Positions 5,345 through 60,154 of a stretch of 60,154 nucleotides of DNA are shown one piece after another. Source of the stretch: an alpha proteobacterium SCGC AAA536-G10 (GTDB taxonomy: Bacteria; Pseudomonadota; Alphaproteobacteria; Puniceispirillales; Marisalimonadaceae). The DNA lies in assembly GCA_000384615.1 (NCBI GenBank), contig ARQU01000002.1:130646-190799 (forward strand). Direction: 5' to 3'. A program made the translations under genes and the position numbers. Every line of letters starts with the position of its first letter. Positions within the stretch are counted from its first letter, which is position 1. The notes beneath the pieces were generated by a model, which had not been told where the DNA came from, did not search any database, and saw only the letters and a list, made by a program, of their open reading frames with translations.

Positions 5345-6289
5345 TTAAGCTATATTTTTTGGTTTCCAATTTGCTAATATTATAGCAATCACTATTGAGA
5401 CAAACCCAATAATTAACTTAAAAGTTATTTCTTCATTAAGTATTATTGATCCAAGCAAAATAGCTGATAAAGGATTAAATCCAAGAGATATCGCGGCTTG
5501 AGTTGGTGAAATTAATTGAAGTGCTTTTCCCCAGCAATACATCATTAGAACTCCCCCAGGTATAATTAACATCAATAAAGCTGCAACTTCAAATTCATTG
5601 ATTTCTAAAAGATTATTAATAGATTTACCAAAAATTATAGATATGAAAAAATTAAATATTGTACCAATTAAAATAACATAGATCATTACAGGTATGTTCC
5701 CATATTTCTTTAAATATTTACCTGAAAATACTGTAAAACATGATGCTGATAAAACACCAATCATCATAAGAAAGTCACCTTTTAATGTAGAGGCAAAGTT
5801 CTCATCTACTTTTTCAGACATACAAAATGATACTCCTGCAATAGCAAGTAGGACAGCGATAGATTTGTTAATCGTAATTTTTTCAATATTAAAAAAATAA
5901 GCAATAATTACTGTACATAAAGGCATTGTTGCATAAAGTAATCCTGCTCTTGCAGCAGTTGTATGTTCTAGACCTAAAGCCATAAAATTTGGAAAAAGAG
6001 TAATCATAGCTAAACCAAGTAAACTCATAGGAATTAAATCTGTCTTGAAAAACTTCTTTTTCATATAGATTGACATGGATAGTAAAAATAGAATTAAACC
6101 AGTTAAACCATAACGCAAAAAACTTAATGTGAATGGATCTATGCTATCCACAACATATCTTGTAAATACAAATGTGGATCCTCCTAACATCGCAGATAAA
6201 GAAGCAAAAAATGATCCTAGCAGTAAAGTTTTGAGGATTGTTTTGTCTTTATTCATTATAGATTTTCTAATAAGTTGTAGTAAGGACAT
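5345..6289 (-). CDS. EamA/DMT-family transporter
   Basis: A 314-residue integral membrane protein of the drug/metabolite transporter superfamily. About ten hydrophobic segments fall into two EamA repeats (roughly residues 20-155 and 170-305), with the usual signature where the second repeat closes (AAISLGFNPLSAILLGSIILNEE). DMT proteins of this type export amino acids, metabolites or drugs, but the substrate cannot be read from the sequence. An internal ATG at codon 12 (MNKDKT) is a plausible alternative start, as neither has a strong ribosome-binding site. The gene is convergent with gatB and divergent from the aldo/keto reductase. Confidence 0.85.
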   Translation of the reverse strand: MSLLQLIRKSIMNKDKTILKTLLLGSFFASLSAMLGGSTFVFTRYVVDSIDPFTLSFLRYGLTGLILFLLSMSIYMKKKFFKTDLIPMSLLGLAMITLFPNFMALGLEHTTAARAGLLYATMPLCTVIIAYFFNIEKITINKSIAVLLAIAGVSFCMSEKVDENFASTLKGDFLMMIGVLSASCFTVFSGKYLKKYGNIPVMIYVILIGTIFNFFISIIFGKSINNLLEINEFEVAALLMLIIPGGVLMMYCWGKALQLISPTQAAISLGFNPLSAILLGSIILNEEITFKLIIGFVSIVIAIILANWKPKNIA

Positions 6290-6340
6290 AACTTTAAAAT
6301 TAACCTAATACAACTTTTAACAATTAAAGATAATAAGATT

Positions 6341-7321
6341 ATGAAAAAAAATAAATTAGGAAGAACAGGATTAGATATTTCGCAGGTTATACTTGGAGGA
6401 GGATGGGTAGGTGGACTTTTTATTGATCCAAAATATGAAACTATGGAAAAAGCTATAGAATTCTCAATTGAGTCAGGAATCAACTGGATTGATACAGCAG
6501 AAAGTTATAGTGATGGCCAATCAGAAAAAAATATTGGTGATTTGTTAAGTTCCCTCTCAGGTGAGAACAAGCTACAAGTCTCATCAAAAGCAAGACTAGA
6601 TCCCACAAGTTCAGAAACATTTGAATCTCAACTTGATAGAAAATTAGATAACAGTCTTAAAAGATTAAAATTAGACAAACTAGAATTATATCAGTTACAT
6701 AATAAAATAACACTCGAAGAAAGTGATGAAACTTTAACATCTGCTCAAATTTTAAAGACTAATAGTGTCTCTGAAATTATGGAAAAAATCAAAGAGGACG
6801 GTAGGGTAGATAGTATTGGCTTTACTGCTTTGGGCGACACTGTTCCCATTAAAGATGTAGTCAATACAGGTTCTTTTGATACCGTCCAAATATACTATAA
6901 TCTTTTAAATCCAACAGCTAATTTTGATGATAAAGGTTTGTGGAATGATCATGACTTTTCTGGCTTGATATCAGATTGTCAAAAACAAAATATGGGTATA
7001 ATGGGTATAAGAATTTTTGCCGCTGGTCTACTTGCAACTGATATAAGACATGGGAGAGAAATTCCTGTTACACATGTTATTGATACAAGTGAACAAGAAA
7101 AACGAGTTAAAAAAATATTTGAACTTGTAGGTGAAGCTCATGGTAATAGAGCCCAATTTTCTCTAAGGTATGGATTATCAACTAATAATTTGCATTGTGC
7201 TGTATTAGGTTTAGCATCATTAGATCATCTTGAAAACTCAATTCAAGCAGTTGAAATGGGCCCATTACCTAAAGATGTTTTAGAGGAAATTGCAAAACTA
7301 CAAAAAACAAATTTTATTTGA
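6341..7321 (+). CDS. Aldo/keto reductase
   Basis: A 326-residue NAD(P)H-dependent oxidoreductase of the AKR (TIM-barrel) superfamily. The catalytic tetrad is visible: Asp and Tyr in WIDTAESYSDG, Lys in VSSKARL and His in LYQLHNK. The C-terminal SLRYGLSTNN...VLGLASLDHLENS segment is the cofactor-binding end of the barrel. It resembles the L-galactose-dehydrogenase/YhdN-like branch, but the substrate is not determinable. The next gene, encoding a ketopantoate-reductase-like enzyme, begins about 37 bp downstream on the same strand, so the two may be cotranscribed. Confidence 0.85.
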   Translation: MKKNKLGRTGLDISQVILGGGWVGGLFIDPKYETMEKAIEFSIESGINWIDTAESYSDGQSEKNIGDLLSSLSGENKLQVSSKARLDPTSSETFESQLDRKLDNSLKRLKLDKLELYQLHNKITLEESDETLTSAQILKTNSVSEIMEKIKEDGRVDSIGFTALGDTVPIKDVVNTGSFDTVQIYYNLLNPTANFDDKGLWNDHDFSGLISDCQKQNMGIMGIRIFAAGLLATDIRHGREIPVTHVIDTSEQEKRVKKIFELVGEAHGNRAQFSLRYGLSTNNLHCAVLGLASLDHLENSIQAVEMGPLPKDVLEEIAKLQKTNFI

Positions 7322-8275: not shown

Positions 8276-9076
8276 TTATGTTCCAATTTTAAACGAAGAT
8301 TTTAATCCTCTTAAACAAGCTATAACACTTAAACCAGTAATTTTGCCTGTTCCTGGGTTCTCAGGGGTTTGAACATTTTGAATAGACATTTCAAAAACAG
8401 CGCTGTCTGAATTAACTTGAACTTTATGGGTATTTCTCTTCAAATTAGGGTCCGCCCATATTTCAAGATTTGTTTTATCTGCGCCAATTCCAGCTAGACC
8501 TACCGCTGCAGCAACATTTACATTAGCTGGAAAAGCTTTTGCACCATCGGTTGCAGACCCTTTGAATATTAATTTTGGTTCTAATAAATTATTTATTTCA
8601 ATATTATTATTAATAACATATGGAGCATTAGTCAGAGCATTAGGCGGTTTGCGTGTAATCATTGTGACAGAATTAATGTTAGATTCTGAAGCGGCTCTTA
8701 GGGCATCTAAGCCTAAAATTGCTCCTGTGGCTAAAATAATTTGAGAGTTGTTATTCTTCGCTAATTTCTCTAGGTCCAAATTATCAAGCATTCCTGAGCC
8801 ACTTACTGTTATCAATTTTCTTTGTTTATTAATACATTTAGTAGCAATTTCTCTAAAAGCCTCTTTGGGAGCGCAGTCAATAATTATCTCACAATTATCA
8901 ACAAGGTTATCTAAATCATAAATTTCTATATTTTTATCTAATTTATCAATTCTTTCTTGAGCGTTAGCTTTACTTCTTGATGTGATACCATATAAAGAAA
9001 AATCTTCTACCCCATTAATAAGTGCTTTACCAACTTCTGTTCCTATAGACCCAAATCCAACAATCCCGACATTCAT
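8276..9076 (-). CDS. nadX: L-aspartate dehydrogenase
   Basis: A 266-residue NAD(P)-dependent dehydrogenase. The Rossmann loop is GFGSIGTEVG near the N-terminus, and the C-terminal half carries the DUF108 signature (AAAVGLAGIGADKT, then WADPNLKRNTHKV with the putative catalytic His). The family oxidises aspartate to iminoaspartate, the precursor of NAD via NadA, or runs in reverse to assimilate ammonia. No nadA or nadC is adjacent, so the NAD role is inferred from family only. It follows the gamma-glutamyltransferase gene by 18 bp on the same strand. Confidence 0.85.
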   Translation of the reverse strand: MNVGIVGFGSIGTEVGKALINGVEDFSLYGITSRSKANAQERIDKLDKNIEIYDLDNLVDNCEIIIDCAPKEAFREIATKCINKQRKLITVSGSGMLDNLDLEKLAKNNNSQIILATGAILGLDALRAASESNINSVTMITRKPPNALTNAPYVINNNIEINNLLEPKLIFKGSATDGAKAFPANVNVAAAVGLAGIGADKTNLEIWADPNLKRNTHKVQVNSDSAVFEMSIQNVQTPENPGTGKITGLSVIACLRGLKSSFKIGT

Positions 9077-9094
9077 GATTTTATCCTATTTTTT

Positions 9095-10903
9095 TCATCT
9101 TCCAATTGCATATCCTTGCATAAATCTTGGATTTGCTGCGCCTTTTAAAATTCCATTTTCCTTAGAGGCGGCTGTCATTCTCCCAAGGCTCCATTCAGTA
9201 TCAACAGAAATTTTATGGCCCTTTTTCTTAAGTTCATCAATAGTCTTTGAAGGAAATCTTCCTTCAACGGCTAAGTGACCTATATCGGTTTCTCTTGGAT
9301 AAAAGGAATTTGGAAAATGAGCTGTACTAAAACCTGGGGCATCAATAGCCTCCTGAAGGTTCAATCCAAAGTGAACGTGTCTCAAAAATAAATGAAGTGA
9401 CCACTGATCTTGCTGATCGCCACCTGGTGTTCCAAAAACCATATATGGAACACCATCTTTTAATGCTAAGCTCGGAGACAAAGTCGTTCTGGGTCTCCTC
9501 TTAGGTCCTATGCAAGCAGGTGATTTATCATCTAACCAAAACATTTGACCTCTATTAGACAAACAAAAACCTAGTTCTGGTATAATAGGAGAACTTTGTA
9601 ACCATCCACCACTAGGTGTTCCTGCGATCATGTTGCCCCATTTGTCTATTATGTCAAAATGTGTGGTATCTCCTCTAGTATCCCCAAGGCTGTTTGGATT
9701 TGGTTCATCAAAACGAGCTACTGTTGGTTCGCCTATGTCAAATTTAGAGAAAGATTCTGGAGTTGTACCCTTTGGTCTTACTAACACTTCCCCTCCAAAC
9801 CCAGGAATGTTTCCGGGCCTAACTTCCATAGAGGCTTTTCCAGAAATTAGACTTCTTCGTTGAATATTATACTGTTCACTCAGTAATATATCCATCGGTA
9901 TTTCATTAAAGTTAGTATCACCATAAAAAGCTTCTCTATCTGCAAAAGCTAATTTGGTTGCCTCAACAACTAAGTGAACAAACTCTGGTGACTTTTCATC
10001 TAGAGCATCCAAATCAAATTTTTTCAATAATGCTAATTGCTGAAGGAAAGTTGGTCCTTGTCCCCATGGACCAGTTTTACAAACGGTATAGTTTTTATAA
10101 TCATAAGATAAAGGTTTTTCTATAGAAGCTGACCAATTAGCTATATCATTGGCAGTAAGTAAGCCTTTATGCTTACTTTCAGTTGTATCCATTACATGAT
10201 TATTTTTACAATAATTTTCAATCTCTTCTGCGACGAAACCTTTGCTCCATATTTCTCTCGCTTGATTTATCTGTTCTTTTTTATCTCTTGATTTACCTTC
10301 TGCTTCTTTAATGATCTTTAAATAAGTTTCGGCCATTTTTTTATTAGTAAAAAAATCACTCTCTTGAGGCAACTTGCCTCCTGGAAGATATATTTCTGCA
10401 GAGCTTGTCCATTCATTTCTAAATAATTCTTCAACAGACTTTATGGTATTAATTATATTTGGAACTAAGTGATAACCTTTCGTTGCAATATCAATAGATG
10501 GCTCCAAGACATCTCTTAATGACATGGTTCCAAAATTTGATAATAATAACATCCAAGCATCAAAAGCACCTGGGACAACAGCTGGTAACAAACCACTACC
10601 TGGGACTATATTTAATCCAAGATCATTGAAACTCTTTAACGTTGCTTGCTCTGGAGCTACTCCTTGACCACATATAACAATCGGATCTTTATTATTCGGA
10701 GCTAAGATCAATGGTACCTCACCACCAGGACCATTTAGATGAGGTTCGACAACTTGAAGAGTGAATCCTGTAGCAACTGCCGCATCAAATGCATTACCTC
10801 CTTTTTCTAATATTGACATTCCAACTGCTGAAGCAACCCAATGAGTAGATGTTACAATACCAAAATTTCCAACAATCTCAGGTCTTGTAGTAAAGTTTTT
10901 CAT
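9095..10903 (-). CDS. Gamma-glutamyltransferase family protein (Ntn hydrolase)
   Basis: A 602-residue member of the gamma-glutamyltranspeptidase family, made as a proenzyme that cleaves itself. The processing site and N-terminal nucleophile of the small subunit would be T413 in the motif DTTHFDIIDKWGN. The glycine-rich GTPSGG stretch and the later FGTPGGDQQDQ motif of the small subunit follow. There is no convincing signal peptide, which differs from classic periplasmic Ggt; cytoplasmic or cephalosporin-acylase/oxamate-type relatives are alternatives. It probably forms one transcript with nadX downstream. It is divergent from the TTT transporter, sharing the roughly 100 bp control region 10904-11009. 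Confidence 0.87.
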   Translation of the reverse strand: MKNFTTRPEIVGNFGIVTSTHWVASAVGMSILEKGGNAFDAAVATGFTLQVVEPHLNGPGGEVPLILAPNNKDPIVICGQGVAPEQATLKSFNDLGLNIVPGSGLLPAVVPGAFDAWMLLLSNFGTMSLRDVLEPSIDIATKGYHLVPNIINTIKSVEELFRNEWTSSAEIYLPGGKLPQESDFFTNKKMAETYLKIIKEAEGKSRDKKEQINQAREIWSKGFVAEEIENYCKNNHVMDTTESKHKGLLTANDIANWSASIEKPLSYDYKNYTVCKTGPWGQGPTFLQQLALLKKFDLDALDEKSPEFVHLVVEATKLAFADREAFYGDTNFNEIPMDILLSEQYNIQRRSLISGKASMEVRPGNIPGFGGEVLVRPKGTTPESFSKFDIGEPTVARFDEPNPNSLGDTRGDTTHFDIIDKWGNMIAGTPSGGWLQSSPIIPELGFCLSNRGQMFWLDDKSPACIGPKRRPRTTLSPSLALKDGVPYMVFGTPGGDQQDQWSLHLFLRHVHFGLNLQEAIDAPGFSTAHFPNSFYPRETDIGHLAVEGRFPSKTIDELKKKGHKISVDTEWSLGRMTAASKENGILKGAANPRFMQGYAIGR

Positions 10904-50722: not shown

Positions 50723-50938
50723 ATGATTTACTCTGAAGTTTCTGGAACATTAATAAAGATATTAGTTTCAAAAAATCAAATTATAGAAGAAGACACTGAT
50801 TTATTAGTGATAGAATGCATGAAAATGCATATCCCAATTACCGCTAAAAAAAGAGGAAAAATTATTGATATTTTTATTAAAGAAGGTGATTTAGTCAGTG
50901 AAGGAGACAAGTTGTTAAATATTAATTACGACATTTAA
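50723..50938 (+). CDS. Stand-alone biotin carboxyl carrier protein
   Basis: A 71-residue biotinyl/lipoyl-attachment domain and nothing more. The biotinylation site is the Lys in ECMKMH (canonical E[AS]MKM), about residue 35, with the usual GTLIKI and VSEGDKLL strands. It lies 20 bp after the carboxyltransferase gene and would shuttle carboxybiotin between it and an unlinked biotin carboxylase. Confidence 0.87.
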   Translation: MIYSEVSGTLIKILVSKNQIIEEDTDLLVIECMKMHIPITAKKRGKIIDIFIKEGDLVSEGDKLLNINYDI

Positions 50939-51071
50939 TATCAGAATATAAAATACTTTTAATAAATGTATTTCCTGATAGAGATTTATATATATATATA
51001 TGTTGAATAGATCTAAGAGTGCAGTTTTTAAATTTAATCAGTTAGAGTAATATTTTTTAAACTGTAAAAAG

Positions 51072-52433
51072 TTATTCCAAAATACTTTCATAAAGTACAC
51101 GCATAAGCATTCTTACTCCATCATCATTTTTAAATAAGTTATAATCATGTTTCCCGCTTAAATGAAATTCTCTCAAGTCAGATAATAATTCCGGATGAAA
51201 TTGAAAACTGAATGAACGCCTAATTTTATTAGTCTGATAATCTTTGTAACTTATGCATGTAGCAGCAACTTCCGTCAAAGTTTTATCTTTAAAAGATGTT
51301 GAACATAATACCTCCACAGACGAAGGTAACCGAAGAAGCCAAGATAATGGAGATATTGATATAAGATTTGAACATGAAGAAAGCGTGTCTTGTAATTCTG
51401 AGTAAGCCCAATTTGCAAATAAAATCGCCTCTTGATTAACTTCATCAGAATGAAACATCAAAAGTTCTAAATTTCTTTCATAAGATATAGACTCTTCTAT
51501 AATTCCATTATATTCAGATGATGATTTATTATGTTTAATTAAAAGCTTTTTAAAATCAGATGATGGATGAATACCGTCATGTTTAAAATGCTTTAATTCA
51601 CACTTTCCTACTTCAGTGATTTCATTCTTAGCAACGGCAAAGCATGGATCATTCCAACCAGAAGCAATCTCTGAACCATTTTTAACAATTTTTAAGTGTG
51701 CTCCAACTGTTTCAATTTCATTGCATAAAAAAACTAGTGTTTCATATTTATAGTCATCTTTTTTGATTACAATCGACAGTTGATTACGGATAGTATCAAT
51801 TGCTTTCTTAATTAGGGTTATATGTGCTTGGGCAACAAGTTGGTGGCCTAAACAAATAAAAATTGCTGGTGAACTTTTCTGTACTCGCGAAAGTAAGATC
51901 CTTTCAGATAGTATGAGCAATTCTTTCAAACTTACATCTGAATTATCAAACGTACTTGAATCACTAACAGATGGATGACCACCTTCAAAAACAATTGCAA
52001 GAGAGTTCTGAAGAACTTCAATTAACTTGTCCATATTAGAAATTCCACTTTCCCAAAGTGGAAACAAAACCGAATCACAGTCGGCGATCATTCTACATAT
52101 GTATGCTACATTTGAAGATGCTCTTACGCCTTCACCTTGATTATTTTCTCCAATATGATCTGACGGTTCTATTATGCTTACAGCGTTTTTAATAATATTC
52201 GCGTTGTTCAATATATACTGTAAATCATTTGTATTTTTCACGATTTTCTCTAGAGGCTCTACTCCCCAAGGTCCAACCAATTTTTTGGAAGACAACTCTT
52301 TTGATAACAAACTATTTGAATGTCTGTCTGCTAAAAAACTAGTTATTAATGTCTGAAATGCTTGAATAGAATTAGTATTTTCATCATAAAAAGAAGAAGT
52401 ACTTCTCCATTTTAACTTTAAATTATCATCCAT
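51072..52433 (-). CDS. Glutamine-amidotransferase-like protein of unknown function
   Basis: About 453 residues. A class I glutamine amidotransferase-like triad is visible: Cys in FICLGHQLVAQ (about residue 195) and His-Glu in FSFQFHPELLSDL (about residue 410). The two parts are separated by an unusually long insert of about 200 residues, and there is a 150-residue N-terminal region without a recognisable domain (but with EGGHPSVSDS before the nucleophile elbow). No synthetase partner gene lies nearby. I chose ATG 52433; an in-frame TTG at 52451 is possible. It may release ammonia or act as a peptidase or gamma-glutamyl hydrolase. The specific function is not recognised. Confidence 0.65.
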   Translation of the reverse strand: MDDNLKLKWRSTSSFYDENTNSIQAFQTLITSFLADRHSNSLLSKELSSKKLVGPWGVEPLEKIVKNTNDLQYILNNANIIKNAVSIIEPSDHIGENNQGEGVRASSNVAYICRMIADCDSVLFPLWESGISNMDKLIEVLQNSLAIVFEGGHPSVSDSSTFDNSDVSLKELLILSERILLSRVQKSSPAIFICLGHQLVAQAHITLIKKAIDTIRNQLSIVIKKDDYKYETLVFLCNEIETVGAHLKIVKNGSEIASGWNDPCFAVAKNEITEVGKCELKHFKHDGIHPSSDFKKLLIKHNKSSSEYNGIIEESISYERNLELLMFHSDEVNQEAILFANWAYSELQDTLSSCSNLISISPLSWLLRLPSSVEVLCSTSFKDKTLTEVAATCISYKDYQTNKIRRSFSFQFHPELLSDLREFHLSGKHDYNLFKNDDGVRMLMRVLYESILE

Positions 52434-52696
52434 TAATGCATCGTCTCCCAATATAATTAGTCTATGTCTCCATAAATGAAATCGGTCATAAAAAGACTGT
52501 TAAGACTTTCACTTAATTTACTAGTCATATTAAACAAATAAATAACTTATAAACTAATAGTTATCATTAAGAATTTTATTTAAATAGAAATACTTAAAGC
52601 TGGATAATTTTTACATAGTTTAAAGATTATTTAAAATTGAAATTTTTATAAATCTAAAATAAGTTTGATGTTAATTTTGTTATTTAAGGTAATTAA

Positions 52697-53467
52697 ATGA
52701 AAACTTTTAAAGAGTTTTTGTATGTTTTTAATTTTAAGGTTTTGTTAATAGTATTTGTTAGTTTACTGGCAACATATTTATGCGACTATTTAGAACTTAT
52801 TGGTGACATGCCTACTTCTCTGATTGGTATTGCAGTTGTATTTCCCATTGTCTTTAGTATAAACTCTGCTTTCCAAAGAAGAGACAAAGCCTTAGAACAC
52901 TATGGAATTATAAATGCTAATCTTGCGTCTATTTTTTTTACTTATAATAGTTGGAGTGAAAATAAAATAAGTAAAAAAGAAGACTCAGCTTCAATCAAAA
53001 CAATTAATGGAAAATTACTTAAACTTATCAAAAACGATTTGATAAAGGAGAATGCAGATAAAATAATTAAAAAAGAAATATATAAGTGTTTTTATTTAAT
53101 TTTCAATAAAAACGAAGAATTAAGAAATTTAGGCATAACCCCTACAGAAATCCAAACTATGAATCTATTACTCAACAATGTAATTGTGAGTTTTGAAAAT
53201 TTGAGTGCTATATCAGATTACCGAACACCAAGGGGATTGCGTGCATACAGCAAGATATTTTTAAATATATTCCCAATTATTTTCGCGCCTTATTTTGCTT
53301 ATTTAAATCAAGAATTAAGTTTTTTAGGTTATGTAGTGGCGTTATTGTTTTCCACAGTTTTAGTTATTTTAAGTAACATTCAAGATAATGTTGAGAATCC
53401 ATTTGATTTTAAAGGATTAGATGACATAGACTTAGATAAAGAGAATAGATTCAAAAACATTATTTAA
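52697..53467 (+). CDS. Bestrophin-like membrane protein (copy 1)
   Basis: A 256-residue protein with four hydrophobic segments (about 13-33, 38-58, 182-203, 207-228). The pattern SLIGIAVVFPIVFSINSAFQ followed by RRDKALEHYG resembles the second helix and Arg-rich turn of bestrophin (SLLGIAIAIFLGFRNNASYSR in Klebsiella Best). The C-terminal ENPFDFKGLDDIDLD matches the acidic EDPFG region after the last helix. It is therefore probably a bestrophin-family anion channel, though divergent. It is 34 bp upstream of the pLGIC gene and paralogous to 54740-55513; residues 42-76 are identical in both copies although the DNA differs at many synonymous sites. Confidence 0.72.
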   Translation: MKTFKEFLYVFNFKVLLIVFVSLLATYLCDYLELIGDMPTSLIGIAVVFPIVFSINSAFQRRDKALEHYGIINANLASIFFTYNSWSENKISKKEDSASIKTINGKLLKLIKNDLIKENADKIIKKEIYKCFYLIFNKNEELRNLGITPTEIQTMNLLLNNVIVSFENLSAISDYRTPRGLRAYSKIFLNIFPIIFAPYFAYLNQELSFLGYVVALLFSTVLVILSNIQDNVENPFDFKGLDDIDLDKENRFKNII

Positions 53468-53501
53468 AATATTAATTTTAGAATTACCGTGGAGAAGTAC
53501 A

Positions 53502-54596
53502 ATGAATTTCAAGTTTTTTTTATCAATATTTTTAACATTGCTATTCTCAGGAACAAACCCGTCTTTTTCTAAGGACTCCTCGCATTCTAATTCTCAACCT
53601 AAATTAGAAAAATCTGAAATAAAAACAGAGCATTTAGTTGAAACCAAAATATTATATGATGAAATATATGGAATTGACATAAGTGTAGGACAGTACAAAG
53701 TTTCTGTTGAAGTATTAATGATATGGGATGATGATAAAACTTCTGAATTCATTTCAAAATTTGGGGATGAAATTATCCATGGACCAAAACTTGATAAATA
53801 TTTAGAAACAATTTGGTATCCTGAATATTTTGTATCTAATGCAGAAAATCCTAGAACAACTCACTACAAAACATTGGATGTCTATAAAGGAAAATTTGAG
53901 TTGTTTGAGAGATTTGAAGCAGATTTAAGTATTGATGCTGAAATGCCAAGATATCCTTTTGGTAATCTCGATCTGTTTCTAGATATTGCTTCGTTTTCAG
54001 GTAATAAATCAAAAATGGTATTTTATCCTGCTGGAATTGAAATTGGACACCACGATGCTCATCACAAAATAGTAAAGGGAAATTGGAAAGTTACGAATAC
54101 GATTCTTGAGGAGCAGGGAAGAACAAGTTTAAATCATGGAGGTAAGGAAAAATTTTCATACTTAATATCACATGTAAATGTAGAACATGGTTTCATTGAC
54201 TCAGTACAAAAAATACTTTTTCCTGTTTTCGCAATAGTATTCCTATCACTGCTGATGAATCACTTTTACCCATCAGGAAATTACGATATTTTTAATTGGA
54301 GGGTAGGTGGACAACTTACATTATTTCTAACAGTGCCTGCATTAAAATTTTCACTTGGAGGAGCACTGCCAAGTACTCATTATCTAAATTTCACAGATGG
54401 ATTATTTATTTGGGCTACCTTTGTTGTAACATTTAATCTTATGATAGGGATAATCAGTCATTATAAAATGGCAGAGGAAGGGGGAAATACAAATAGGGGA
54501 ATTGAAAAAATAGCTAGGACTGCAAGCCCTTTATTTGCTTTAGGTGCCTTTACAATTTTGTATTTGTATATTTTTAAAGATGTAGTTCCACATTGA
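53502..54596 (+). CDS. Pentameric ligand-gated ion channel (GLIC-like pLGIC)
   Basis: A 364-residue channel subunit. A signal peptide (1-23) precedes an extracellular beta-sandwich with pLGIC landmarks: MIWDDD (73-78; WxD motif), ETIWYPEYFVSNAENPR (102-118; GLIC has AIWIPEIRFVNVENAR), LFERFEADL (134-142) and PRYPFGNLDL (149-158; the RYPFD Cys-loop-equivalent). Four helices follow: M1 233-253, M2 267-287, M3 298-319, M4 341-360. M2 ends in ALP before YLNFTDGLF, as in GLIC (LPKTPYMTYTG). Pore positions are R0', V1', G2', T6', L9', A13'. The Cys pair is absent, as usual in bacteria. A five-fold inner-membrane channel gated by an unknown ligand or protons is expected. Confidence 0.9.
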   Translation: MNFKFFLSIFLTLLFSGTNPSFSKDSSHSNSQPKLEKSEIKTEHLVETKILYDEIYGIDISVGQYKVSVEVLMIWDDDKTSEFISKFGDEIIHGPKLDKYLETIWYPEYFVSNAENPRTTHYKTLDVYKGKFELFERFEADLSIDAEMPRYPFGNLDLFLDIASFSGNKSKMVFYPAGIEIGHHDAHHKIVKGNWKVTNTILEEQGRTSLNHGGKEKFSYLISHVNVEHGFIDSVQKILFPVFAIVFLSLLMNHFYPSGNYDIFNWRVGGQLTLFLTVPALKFSLGGALPSTHYLNFTDGLFIWATFVVTFNLMIGIISHYKMAEEGGNTNRGIEKIARTASPLFALGAFTILYLYIFKDVVPH

Positions 54597-54739
54597 GAAT
54601 TAAGTAAATAAGAATAATAGATTTATATAGTTAGTAATGAGGCATATGTAATTTTTAATTTAATTTGTTCCCAGAACTTTAATTGAATGTAATATTTTTT
54701 TAACAAATATTTTATATACTTTCGTAGAAGGATTATTAT

Positions 54740-55513
54740 ATGAATTTTAATGTCTTAAAAGATTTTTTATATATAATTAATTTTAAAGTTTATATTATTA
54801 TAATTCTATCTGTAATTGCTACTTATATATGCACTATCATTAGTCTCGTTGGAAATATGCCAACTGCTCTTATAGGTATAGCAGTTGTTTTTCCTATTGT
54901 TTTCAGCATTAATTCTGCATTTCAAAGAAGAGACAAGGCACTTGAACACTATGGTATAATTAATGCCAATCTTACTTCAATTTATTTTGCACATTTAAAT
55001 TGGCCCAAAAAAAACCAACCTTTAAAAGAAAACCCAAATATTGTTAAAATTATAAAAGAACTTTTTTCATTTATAAAACAAGATTTAATAACAAGTAGTT
55101 CTAATAATACAAATAAAAAAGAAATCTATGATAGCTTTCTAAAAATTTCTAATAAAAATGAAAAATTAAGAAATGCAGGTGTATCAGACGGTGAAATTTC
55201 AAGAATCAATAATTGGTTGAATAATAGTATCGTTTCCTATGAAAAAATAAGCTCTATTTCTGATTATAGAACACCAAGAGGCTTAAAAGCCTACAGCCAA
55301 ATTTTTTTACATATTTTTCCTATTTTTTTTGCACCATATTTTGCAAGTCTTAACGAAGTTATTTCATATTTAGGATATATTGTAGCTATTTTATATTCTT
55401 CTGTGTTAGTTATGTTAAGTAATATTCAAAATAATATTGAAAATCCATTTGATAATGTTGGATTGGACGATATTAATTTAGATAAAGAAAACAGATTTAA
55501 AAACTTATTTTGA
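54740..55513 (+). CDS. Bestrophin-like membrane protein (copy 2)
   Basis: A 257-residue paralogue of 52697-53467, with the same four helices, the identical 35-residue core (residues 44-78), SDYRTPRGLKAYSQIF before helix 3, and the acidic ENPFDNVGLDDINLD tail. Segments between helix 2 and helix 3 (about 85-150) are diverged. It lies 143 bp downstream of the pLGIC gene with its own AT-rich upstream sequence. Two paralogues may form homo- or hetero-pentamers. Assignment as a bestrophin is by pattern, not proven. Confidence 0.72.
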   Translation: MNFNVLKDFLYIINFKVYIIIILSVIATYICTIISLVGNMPTALIGIAVVFPIVFSINSAFQRRDKALEHYGIINANLTSIYFAHLNWPKKNQPLKENPNIVKIIKELFSFIKQDLITSSSNNTNKKEIYDSFLKISNKNEKLRNAGVSDGEISRINNWLNNSIVSYEKISSISDYRTPRGLKAYSQIFLHIFPIFFAPYFASLNEVISYLGYIVAILYSSVLVMLSNIQNNIENPFDNVGLDDINLDKENRFKNLF

Positions 55514-55565
55514 TCTTTTGTTATAAATTAATAATAATATTTTTAACAAATATAAGGAAGAGCTT

Positions 55566-56435
55566 TTGTCAAAATACTTAAAAAATAGTTTTAAAATAAG
55601 AAATATTTTTTTGTTTTTTTTGATTTTTAATTTGTGTTTTAATAAACACTCGATTGCTCATTTTGATCGTGATAAATCTACAATTAGTCAAATTATCTTA
55701 ATCAAAACATTAAAAAATAATATTCATATACGATCTACAAAAAATTTTTATTTTATCAAATCTAATGGTATTCCTAATCACAAGACAGGAGTTTTTCCAA
55801 CAAGAGGTAATCCAAATAAAATATCTGAACAATTTCATAATTTAAGAGTCACTAAATTTCCTAAAAAGCAAAAAAATACTACTCCAGCTAGATTTTTTGG
55901 TGTTGGGTTAAACGGAATAATGTTTGTTCCAGAAACTGCTGGTTGTTGGGGTCAAAAAAGAAGAGGTGAAAAAAAGTGTGCTTGGAGTAAGGAAGCAATT
56001 ATAAACGGTAAGTTTACCCTTGGTCTTGATAAGAATAGTGGTCATGTTCAAAGGAGTGGCATGTATCACTACCATGGAATTCCTGAGGGACTTGTTGAGA
56101 AACTTAAAACAGAAAATTCTTTTGAAGATTTAACAAAAATTGGAATTGCAGCCGATGGTTTTGGAATATATGTAAGTAATGACAACAAATTTCAGTCTAG
56201 TTATAAACTCAAACAAGGAAAAAGACCAAATGGCCCTCTTGGATCATATGATGGAAATTATACGCAAGATTTTGAGTTTGTCTATGATTCAGGAGATTTA
56301 GATAAATGCAATGGAATTAATTTTGATAAGAAATATATTTATATAGTCACAAAAAAATTTCCATATATTCCTAGATGTTGGTCAGGTAAGCCTGATCGCT
56401 CTTTTTTGAAACGTCCTGACAACAGGAATAATTAG
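55566..56435 (+). CDS. Secreted YHYH-domain protein
   Basis: A 289-residue protein with an N-terminal hydrophobic signal segment (about 12-31, then HSIAHFD). The YHYH domain spans about 105-265: GVGLNGIMFVPETAG, SGHVQRSGMYHYHGIPEGL (YHYH at 167-170) and IGIAADGFGIYV, then LGSYDGNYTQDFEFV. YHYH proteins are secreted and of unknown biochemistry, probably metal-binding from their His-rich core. TTG 55566 is used, with AAGGAAG 8-14 bp upstream. It follows the second bestrophin-like gene by 52 bp and may belong to the same cassette. Confidence 0.8.
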   Translation: MSKYLKNSFKIRNIFLFFLIFNLCFNKHSIAHFDRDKSTISQIILIKTLKNNIHIRSTKNFYFIKSNGIPNHKTGVFPTRGNPNKISEQFHNLRVTKFPKKQKNTTPARFFGVGLNGIMFVPETAGCWGQKRRGEKKCAWSKEAIINGKFTLGLDKNSGHVQRSGMYHYHGIPEGLVEKLKTENSFEDLTKIGIAADGFGIYVSNDNKFQSSYKLKQGKRPNGPLGSYDGNYTQDFEFVYDSGDLDKCNGINFDKKYIYIVTKKFPYIPRCWSGKPDRSFLKRPDNRNN

Positions 56436-56503
56436 TAAAAGAAATCTTATTTAAAATTTATAATTATTATAACCTATTACTAGAAGTTTAAAAATTATCT
56501 ATT

Positions 56504-57979
56504 TTATCTAATTATAAATGGATTCGAGACAGTTGTTTGCTCTGCTATCCATACTGACTTTGTCTGTAAAAATTCTTTAATAGATTCTTGTCCACTTTCT
56601 CTTCCTCTTCCTGATCTTTTGTAACCACCAAAAGGGGACATAAAGCTTACGGCTCTATAAGTATTTACCCAAACAGTGCCAGCTCTGAGAGAGTCTGACA
56701 TTCTAAGCGCTCTTCCAATATTGTTAGTCCATACACCAGCTGCTAGACCAAATACAACATCATTACCTACTTTTATAGCCTCTTCTTCATCCTTAAATCG
56801 AATGATAGATAAAACAGGACCAAATACTTCTTCTTGAGCAATTCTCATTTCATTATTAACATCGGTAAAAATTGTTGGCTCAACAAATCTATTTCCTCTA
56901 ACATTCTCCCCAGAGTAAGCTTTTCCACCTAGAACACATTTTGCACCTTCTGATTTTGCAATTTCTATGTAACTCATGATTTTGTCAAATTGTGGCTGTG
57001 TTGTTACAGGACCTACATGTGTATCAAGTGACATTGGATCACCTATTTTTGCTTCACTTGCAACTTCAACAAGTCTTTTCACAAACTTTTCATAAATAGA
57101 ATCCTGAACTAACAAACGAGACCCTGCTATACAAGTTTGTCCTGTTGCTGCAAATATTCCCGATATTACACCCATTATTGCAGCTTCAAAATCAGCATCT
57201 TCAAAAACAATATTAGGTGATTTACCGCCGAGTTCTAAAGATACAGGCATAATTTTTTTTGCAGCTGTTTCATAGATTTTTTGACCTGAAACATCAGATC
57301 CAGTAAATGCAATTTTTGAAATATGTTTGTGCTCAACAAGTGGTTGTCCAACGTCAATACCCATACCTGTAACACAATTAACAACACCGTCAGGGAATCC
57401 GGCTTCTGAAATTAATTTCATAAATTCTAAAGTAGAAGCAGAAGTAAACTCAGATGGCTTAATTACTGCTGTATTTCCTGCTGCTAATGCTGGAGCAAGT
57501 TTCCAAGATAAAAGTAGTAAAGGAGAGTTCCACGCTGTAATCATTCCGATAACACCATATGGCTCATATTTTGTATAATTAAATATACCAGGTTTATCTG
57601 AGGGTAATACTGATCCTTCAACTTTATCTGCAAGACCACCAAAATACCTATACCATTCGGCAAGATATTTTGTTTGAGCACCCATTTCTGCAATCAACTT
57701 ACCATTATCTTGAACCTCTATTTCACCTAATCTTTGAAAGTCTCTTTCAACAAGCTCAGCAAGTTTTACAAGTAATTTTCCTCTTTCTGTAGGTTTGGTT
57801 TTAGACCATTTTTTTTCAAAGGCTTCTTTTGCAACATTTACAGCTATATCAACGTCATATAAATCACCTTTAGCAATTTTTGCCCATTTTTCACAGGTAT
57901 AAGGATTTTCTGTTTCAAAATATTTTTTACTATTTGGCTCCATCTCTTTGCCATTTACATAATGATTATATATTTTCAT
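56504..57979 (-). CDS. NAD(P)-dependent aldehyde dehydrogenase
   Basis: About 491 residues of a classic ALDH fold. The catalytic motifs are present: LELGGKSPNIVF (Glu) and GQTCIAGSRLLV (nucleophile Cys), with cofactor-binding ITAWNSPLLL and FTGSDVSGQ, and the C-terminal PFGGYKRSGRGRE. It oxidises an aldehyde to the acid; the specific aldehyde is unknown. I prefer ATG 57979 (AAAGGTG 8 bp upstream) over the in-frame start three codons earlier. Confidence 0.92.
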   Translation of the reverse strand: MKIYNHYVNGKEMEPNSKKYFETENPYTCEKWAKIAKGDLYDVDIAVNVAKEAFEKKWSKTKPTERGKLLVKLAELVERDFQRLGEIEVQDNGKLIAEMGAQTKYLAEWYRYFGGLADKVEGSVLPSDKPGIFNYTKYEPYGVIGMITAWNSPLLLLSWKLAPALAAGNTAVIKPSEFTSASTLEFMKLISEAGFPDGVVNCVTGMGIDVGQPLVEHKHISKIAFTGSDVSGQKIYETAAKKIMPVSLELGGKSPNIVFEDADFEAAIMGVISGIFAATGQTCIAGSRLLVQDSIYEKFVKRLVEVASEAKIGDPMSLDTHVGPVTTQPQFDKIMSYIEIAKSEGAKCVLGGKAYSGENVRGNRFVEPTIFTDVNNEMRIAQEEVFGPVLSIIRFKDEEEAIKVGNDVVFGLAAGVWTNNIGRALRMSDSLRAGTVWVNTYRAVSFMSPFGGYKRSGRGRESGQESIKEFLQTKSVWIAEQTTVSNPFIIR

Positions 57980-59366: not shown

Positions 59367-59481
59367 ATTTTCATCTTATCACTTTATTGATATAGATGAA
59401 AGAATTCGAAGTTAATTTTATAAATAGATTACATTTATAAAACTTGCTAATTTTGTTTTAGGAAACTTATTACTTTTTTAT

Positions 59482-60150
59482 ATGTATCAAATTCATAAAG
59501 ATTATTATGCCCAGCATTGGGAATATAAAGAGCCTCTATTTAAAAAACCATCTAAAAGTGAGAATGATACTCTAGTTGTATTTCACGGCAATGCAGGCCA
59601 TATAGGCCACAGAGTCCAAAAATTTAAACCCTTTATGGACGAAGGTTATGGTTTGCTATTACTTGAGTATAGAGGCTATGGAGAAAACAAAGGTAAACCT
59701 ACAGAAAGTGGTCTTTACTTAGACGGTAAAGCGGCTTTAGATTTTTTAACTAATTATAATATCCCTGTAAACAAAACTATTCTATACGGAGAGTCTTTAG
59801 GATGTGGGTTGGCGGTGAAATTTTCAACAGAAGAAAGTTTTAAAGCAACTATTTTAGAGGCTCCTTATACTTCCATAGCAGACGTAGCTATGCGCCAATA
59901 TTGGTATCTTCCTGCTAGATGGTTAGTTTTAGATCGTTATGATATTATTAGTAAAGTAAAGAATATTAATTCACCATTACTTGTTTTACATGGTTTAAAA
60001 GATAAAATAATCAGTATAGAGTTTGGTAAAAGGGTTTTCAATTCTGCTCCAAAACCAAAAGAGGCTCTTTATATTCCCAATGCTGGGCATAATAATCTTT
60101 ATGAATTTGATACATATAAAAAAGTAATAAGTTTCCTAAAACAAAATTAG
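59482..60150 (+). CDS. Alpha/beta hydrolase (BEM46/YfhR-like)
   Basis: A 222-residue hydrolase. The oxyanion region VVFHGNAGHIGHR, the nucleophile elbow YGESLGCGLA (Ser in GxSxG), the acid Asp in HGLKDKI and His in NAGHNNLY form a complete triad. Relatives (BEM46, YfhR, FAM108) have an N-terminal membrane anchor. Here the frame is open upstream and encodes a hydrophobic stretch (TFIKLANFVLGNLLLFY, from about 59431) without ATG, GTG or TTG. ATG 59482 is the only canonical start visible, so the anchor may be lost, or a non-standard start or small lesion may exist upstream. Confidence 0.83.
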   Translation: MYQIHKDYYAQHWEYKEPLFKKPSKSENDTLVVFHGNAGHIGHRVQKFKPFMDEGYGLLLLEYRGYGENKGKPTESGLYLDGKAALDFLTNYNIPVNKTILYGESLGCGLAVKFSTEESFKATILEAPYTSIADVAMRQYWYLPARWLVLDRYDIISKVKNINSPLLVLHGLKDKIISIEFGKRVFNSAPKPKEALYIPNAGHNNLYEFDTYKKVISFLKQN

Positions 60151-60154
60151 CAAG

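Follow-up and report, generated by a model that had tools for sequence, protein, structure and literature searches.

A Pentameric Ligand-Gated Ion Channel Gene Between Two Divergent Bestrophin-Like Genes in the Alphaproteobacterium SCGC AAA536-G10

Gene Content of the Locus

The window analysed here is a stretch of 60,154 nucleotides from contig ARQU01000002.1 (positions 130,646 to 190,799) of the alphaproteobacterium SCGC AAA536-G10 (Puniceispirillales, Marisalimonadaceae; assembly GCA_000384615.1). At 52697-55513 it carries three channel-type genes on the same strand, which encode a bestrophin-like protein (B1), a pentameric ligand-gated ion channel (pLGIC) and a second bestrophin-like protein (B2). 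This arrangement, proposed in an earlier note on the sequence, was confirmed by open reading frames (ORFs) and homology. Loci (L) and genomes (G) used for comparison carry our own numbers, and the main features are listed below in window coordinates.

52697-53467, + strand: B1, divergent bestrophin, ORF of 256 amino acids; Bestrophin_2 (PF25539) E 1e-4, 22.3 bits, below the cut-off of 27; Foldseek matches to bacterial bestrophin chains; neck I45-F49-F53
53502-54596, + strand: pLGIC, 364 amino acids, with an extracellular domain (ECD) and four transmembrane (TM) helices; match to GLIC, E 7.4e-11
53961-53963, + strand: Pro-loop codon G154 (in RYPFG), aligned with GLIC D122; invariant in four orthologues
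54048-54065, + strand: histidine-rich HHDAHH stretch of the ECD (residues 183-188, loop F region); invariant in four of four orthologues; candidate metal or proton site
54186-54188, + strand: pre-M1 codon H229, aligned with GLIC R192; invariant in four orthologues
54294-54311, + strand: start of helix M2, NWRVGG, with Arg at 0' and no acidic residue at -2'/-1', by a gap-free count back from the LP motif
54740-55513, + strand: B2, divergent bestrophin, ORF of 257 amino acids; Bestrophin_2 E 4.4e-5, 23.6 bits, below the same cut-off; neck I47-F51-F55

The gaps between the genes are 34 nucleotides (B1-pLGIC) and 143 nucleotides (pLGIC-B2), and the single terminator-like site on the + strand within 50900-56600 lies at 56379, which together make it plausible that the three genes form one operon. 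Seven terminator-like sites were observed against 1.5 in shuffles. At 29, promoter-like sites were fewer than the 36.8 found on average in shuffles, and we propose no promoter on this basis.

The Ligand-Gated Channel

Orthologues of this pLGIC are here the four sequences with at least 71% identity, namely those of the window, of L005 (MED-G100, another genus), of L006 and of L007; published statements are drawn from excerpts of the cited papers. By sequence, the middle protein clearly belongs to the pLGIC family. Its residues 46-355, a span that covers the ECD and the TM helices, give the GLIC match listed above (phmmer against PDB), and a profile search gave E 1e-10. The Pro-loop proline, the sole absolutely conserved residue of pLGICs (PMC4795631), is present as P152, which aligns with GLIC P120 and is kept in all four orthologues. 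The landmarks IWYPE, RYPFG and ALP after M2 are found in the protein as the earlier note had described them, with Gly in RYPFG where the F/YPxD motif has Asp. The NCBIfam model LGIC_1 matched below its cut-off (E 1.7e-8; 34.2 bits against 500), a Pfam scan of the window pLGIC gave zero matches at E<=1, and Neur_chan_LBD matched the L005 and L007 orthologues below its cut-off (E 0.0017 and 0.0045). For both channel families, we took such cut-offs as a yardstick rather than as a defining trait. Foldseek placed a low-confidence model of the protein with ELIC/GLIC (E 2.8e-5). The protein contains no cysteine, and its hydrophobic N-terminus, read by eye, is a putative signal peptide. The AlphaFold models were built on four-row alignments and reached predicted local distance difference test (pLDDT) values of 50 and 41, so no argument on pentamers or heteromers is made from them.

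Similar to GLIC and ELIC across the ECD and TM regions, the window pLGIC shares with them the Pro-loop proline, the M1 and M2-M3 prolines and the beta-9 Trp. However, both halves of their salt bridge between the Pro-loop Asp and the pre-M1 Arg are replaced, by Gly and His, in all four orthologues. Over 561 sequences, Jaiteh et al. found this Asp in 93% and this Arg in 94% (PMC4795631); in both ELIC and GLIC, mutants of the Asp apparently lost activation, as did the Arg mutant in ELIC, the same mutant being unexpressed in GLIC (PMC4778918). The Gly/His pair lowers the claim of canonical gating and leaves the family assignment untouched. The positions of GLIC D32 and E35 are Ile and Gly (the latter Gly in the three of three orthologues that cover it), and the distance from the M1 Pro to the M2-M3 Pro is six residues longer than in GLIC. 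The HHDAHH cluster, the -2'/-1' positions free of acid and the bestrophin neighbours also distinguish the protein from GLIC and ELIC. Gating of the window pLGIC may differ from that of GLIC, perhaps by way of histidine protonation or metal binding.

The combination of Gly and His at the interface pair was also seen in the distant pLGIC L037 (5471-6160), which suggests that the two positions may change together. Other distant relatives have D/K (L022), D/R (L035) and L/K (L036), and the L021 fragment, from which the Pro-loop is missing, has the pre-M1 His.

The M2 numbering used here is a gap-free count from LP, whereas MAFFT opens gaps in the M1-M2 region relative to GLIC and places the M2 start differently. 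In this register, the -2'/-1' positions lack an acidic residue in all four orthologues, and residues of this kind led Tasneem et al. to expect anion-selective members among prokaryotes (PMC549065). The locus could on these grounds encode an all-anion module, in which an anion-selective pLGIC (NWRVGG, with Arg at 0', Gly at 2' and no acid) is joined by bestrophins that act as parallel anion paths or modulatory subunits. We consider this improbable: the register depends on counting without gaps, the Arg is missing in the relative L021, and in prokaryotes such M2 residues do not settle selectivity according to Jaiteh et al. (PMC4795631).

Bestrophin Relationship of B1 and B2

The flanking proteins, 63% identical to each other, are supported by sequence as distant bestrophin relatives rather than canonical members. 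Both stay below the Pfam cut-off, yet L033, 42% identical to B1, clears it (27.5 against 27 bits), and an hmmsearch with a profile of four canonical bestrophins found both B2 (E 2.1e-9) and B1 (E 2.9e-8) in a small set comprising the ORFs of 11 sequences. Alignment of the divergent with the canonical profile by hhalign gave 91% over 56 columns. The first 20 places in Foldseek are all bacterial bestrophin chains, mostly titled KpBest, at E >= 0.01 and for a model whose pLDDT is 50; bestrophins and helical bundles were not told apart by VIA-align. In a midpoint-rooted tree that carries a long-branch warning, 12 divergent proteins stand apart from 8 canonical ones with support 100/100. The family assignments made in the earlier note survive unequally, clearly for the pLGIC and, for B1 and B2, at the level of a distant subfamily, with scores under the Pfam cut-off; overall, we regard the family identity of the pLGIC and the bestrophins as likely. 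The only PADLOC match, a weak one of B2 to Specificity_I (E 0.0024), was taken for chance, and PHROGs gave zero matches for all three channel proteins.

KpBest and the bacterial bestrophins of PF25539 share with B1 and B2 a distant homology, the position of the neck, the E-[ND]-P-F block and the best Foldseek matches. In contrast, B1 and B2 have a Phe in the middle of the neck, RRDK in place of the RWWE of a conserved segment and a shorter C-terminus, and they are two tandem paralogues placed around a pLGIC. The NPF and acidic stretch of B1/B2 presumably resembles the Ca2+-binding region of BEST1/2. The change of RWWE to RRDK, the canonical C-terminal tail missing from the divergent proteins and the Pfam scores under the cut-off would suit proteins that retained the fold but are not ion channels, serving instead as accessory or other membrane proteins. 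This is very unlikely in our view, as the hydrophobic neck triplet and the E-N-P-F block are kept and B1 and B2 are under purifying selection. In fact all three genes of the locus are, with dN/dS values against L005 of 0.24 for B1, 0.08 for the pLGIC and 0.31 for B2.

Neck Residues

The earlier note had treated bestrophins as anion-selective, which is unsafe as a general rule: KpBest, the bacterial bestrophin that has been studied, has the neck I62-I66-F70 and conducts Na+, whereas eukaryotic bestrophins, with an IFF neck, conduct Cl-, and the KpBest mutation I66F, which creates IFF, shifts the preference towards Cl- (PMC8496536). The TM2 neck segment of B1 and B2 aligns without gaps with other bestrophins and contains the three-residue hydrophobic neck. 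Its middle residue is Phe in 12/12 divergent bestrophins and in 1/48 other bacterial ones, the remaining 47 having Ile, Leu or Val. The full IFF triplet occurs in five of the 12 (the proteins of the window, L005 and L019) and in none of the 48; the other divergent necks are VFF (one), TFF (two) and AFI or GFI (four). Based on these residues, the necks of B1 and B2 favour the anion type. They share the IFF triplet with eukaryotic BEST1/2 (PMC8496536), unlike which they are bacterial proteins of 256-257 amino acids; no close overall similarity to BEST1/2 was found.

The 12 divergent proteins form six clusters at 60% identity. The 48 others are Pfam-level bestrophins of the phylum, made up of 30 loci, 14 further ones from the same 51 matches, and L034, L038, L039 and L041. 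Among the 51 matches, two fragments below the cut-off (G766:C6 and G577) were left unread and two (G529 and G664) already belong to the divergent set, as L097 and L098; L115, a frame without the neck, was left out of the count. An initial sample of 34, leaning to the best-scoring matches, had no middle Phe, and the wider sample of 48 has one.

The AFI or GFI necks belong to a second divergent branch (L097-L100). Seven neighbouring genes were scanned near these loci, and the five with Pfam matches (TPR, DnaJ-related, MCP, GGDEF/EAL, AlgH-like) included no channel family.

Gene Order and Distribution in Relatives

The order B1-pLGIC-B2 recurs in L005, with identities of 72, 90 and 84%, respectively, and no directly flanking gene in common with the window. 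In the tree, the window B2 pairs with the L005 B2, while the window B1, the L005 B1 and the L019 protein join; the B1/B2 duplication therefore preceded the divergence of the two cassettes, and L019 carries a gene of the B1 type. dS values against L005 differ between the genes (0.77 for B1, 0.58 for the pLGIC and 0.29 for B2), which may reflect recombination. The other two pLGIC orthologues lie in different settings. L007 (SAR116 MED585) has no bestrophin in the 9.8 kb around its pLGIC, and the one bestrophin of its genome lies on another contig, beside a voltage-gated cation channel-type gene. In L006 (isolate AG-404-G18), the pLGIC frame (5902-6993) has two internal stops, which represent either decay or sequencing error, and the genome gave no bestrophin match at E<=1. 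The earlier note had named an unconserved gene order in relatives as a refutation; this did not occur, as the order is kept in one other genus, but conservation is partial, with two of the four genomes with this pLGIC showing it.

Bestrophins of the B1/B2 kind were found in three of 136 genomes of the order, and all three also have a close pLGIC. pLGIC matches occur in five of the 136, namely the same three (strong), a fragment at a contig start in G096 and a distant member in G049. The corresponding co-occurrence value of 2.4e-5 takes no account of kinship, and because two of these genomes belong to one genus it is not used as a probability. G071 and G069, from the family of the window genome, were taken as the same assemblies as L005 and L007, as their genes lie at the same places. 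The window itself probably comes from a marine bacterium of the SAR116 group. Among 40 genomes of the genus, the pLGIC is present in the window genome alone, and two further weak matches carry stops.

In L019, the B1-type bestrophin gene (8514-9284, - strand) and a voltage-gated cation channel-type gene (9455-10249, + strand; PF00520, E 1.5e-41) point away from each other across about 170 nucleotides; we count the latter as a second channel neighbour of a divergent bestrophin. The distant pLGICs L022, L035, L036 and L037 served for comparison only. Other candidate relatives were dropped: L003 at 27% identity, read as a gatC-like region, and L008, L009, L027 and L029, which have stops inside. 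No relative was confirmed among 147 and 238 pattern matches in viral contigs, plasmids gave no match for B1 or the pLGIC (the two searched there), and phage records gave none for B2, the only one of the three searched there.

The Islet Around the Channel Genes

The three genes lie within a probably acquired islet that contains two further genes.

50918-56503, no strand: islet, probably acquired; blastn junction 50917/56504 in L082, L083 and L084
51072-52451, - strand: GATase-like gene, 459 amino acids (PF00117, E 5.1e-5), divergent and upstream of B1; no known link to the channel unit
55566-56435, + strand: YHYH-domain gene (PF14240, E 2.5e-43), downstream of B2

L082, L083 and L084 (G021, G001 and G034) have 38-42 bases between the equivalents of window positions 50917 and 56504, and blastn matches of L085 and L086 are limited to the DUF3422 gene of the window. 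Because three close relatives, 98-99% (L082, L083) and 92% (L084) identical in DUF3422, are without the islet, insertion of about 5.6 kb in the window lineage appears more likely than repeated loss. Among 31 other, mutually overlapping window stretches of equal length, 29 have a smaller tetranucleotide distance than the islet. No integrase was found by Pfam among the five islet genes, and no clear target-site repeat was seen at the junctions, both of which fall between intact genes. A YHYH homologue (42%) also occurs at L005 11920-12681, about 4 kb downstream of the cassette there and nearer in the window.

Joint residence on an islet raises the alternative that the channel genes hitch-hike together with no functional coupling. 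The GATase-like and YHYH genes share the islet, pLGIC and bestrophin are on separate contigs in G069, and members of the bestrophin subfamily occur elsewhere without a pLGIC. We hold this to be rather unlikely, given that the B1-pLGIC-B2 unit is intact in two genera with different flanks and that the B1/B2 split predates them.

Possible Function of the Cassette

The reading we prefer, if tentatively and at somewhat less than even confidence, is a probably acquired two-channel cassette in which a ligand-gated channel has anion-type bestrophins as counter-ion partners. The pLGIC would span the inner membrane, expose its sensing domain to the periplasm and open on a ligand or on a pH or metal signal. 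B1 and B2, assembled into homo- or heteropentamers, would be channels whose anion-type neck lets the counter-ion (an anion) pass, so that the pLGIC on opening might cause a lasting flux of salt or hold the membrane potential fixed, instead of changing the voltage only briefly. Direct support comes from the family relationships, the gene order in two genera, the islet, purifying selection and the neck and interface residues; retention of the order in L005, where the directly adjoining genes differ, is counted in favour. The co-expression, selectivity, ligand and coupling of the channels are inferred.

Several observations weigh against this cassette reading. On the genomic side, the three-gene order is found in just two of the four genomes with this pLGIC, and the L007 genome (G069/G138) has its pLGIC and single bestrophin on different contigs. 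The 8-14 kb covered around seven more distant subfamily members (L033, L095-L100) contain no pLGIC, and no bestrophin lies within the 6-12 kb covered around the L021 fragment and the distant pLGICs L022 and L035-L037. On the protein side, the structure models are of poor quality (pLDDT 50 and 41), PDB sequences searched by hmmsearch with the divergent profile of six rows yielded no bestrophin (best E 0.19), and the pLGIC pore has no acidic ring, so that cation conduction is not evident. The full IFF is missing in seven of the 12 divergent bestrophins, and the middle Phe also occurs outside the subfamily, as L110, above the Pfam cut-off, has TFF. This last case slightly weakens the neck contrast and leaves our estimate unchanged because IFF still occurs in 0/48.

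A bolder proposal is a receptor-effector pair that moved between marine bacteria, in which the pLGIC with its Gly/His interface would drive Cl- flux through the co-inherited IFF bestrophins. We think it unlikely; if true, it would give a prokaryotic pLGIC its first functional context and join two unrelated pentameric channel families. As of 2016, no biological role was known for any unicellular pLGIC (Jaiteh et al., PMC4795631). Tasneem et al. (2004) predicted operons that place pLGICs beside PBP-II, Cache and Na+/H+ symporter genes (PMC549065); the cassette likewise sets a pLGIC beside a possible functional partner, here channels of another family. Among the matches listed from excerpts of the open-licence literature, none described a pLGIC-bestrophin pair, a Phe-neck bestrophin subfamily or a Gly/His pLGIC interface. 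Both channel families themselves are known. With a genomic partner kept in two genera, the role of bacterial pLGICs becomes a testable question. The subfamily also offers small bacterial IFF-neck proteins for studying the selection of Cl- over Na+ in bestrophins, and the pLGIC is a naturally occurring member of its family that seems to work in the absence of the Asp-Arg salt bridge.

Contig End

The window genome is a draft in 148 contigs, and a 98-nucleotide inverted repeat stands at the right end of the contig, both of which could point to an assembly or binning artefact behind the locus. Such an origin is hardly credible, since the same three genes occur in the independent assembly L005 and the islet junctions lie between intact genes. 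The two copies of the repeat, at 59443-59540 and 60057-60154, are 99% complementary. The last approximately 620 bases of the contig are inverted relative to three close relatives, and this inversion is probably an assembly end artefact.

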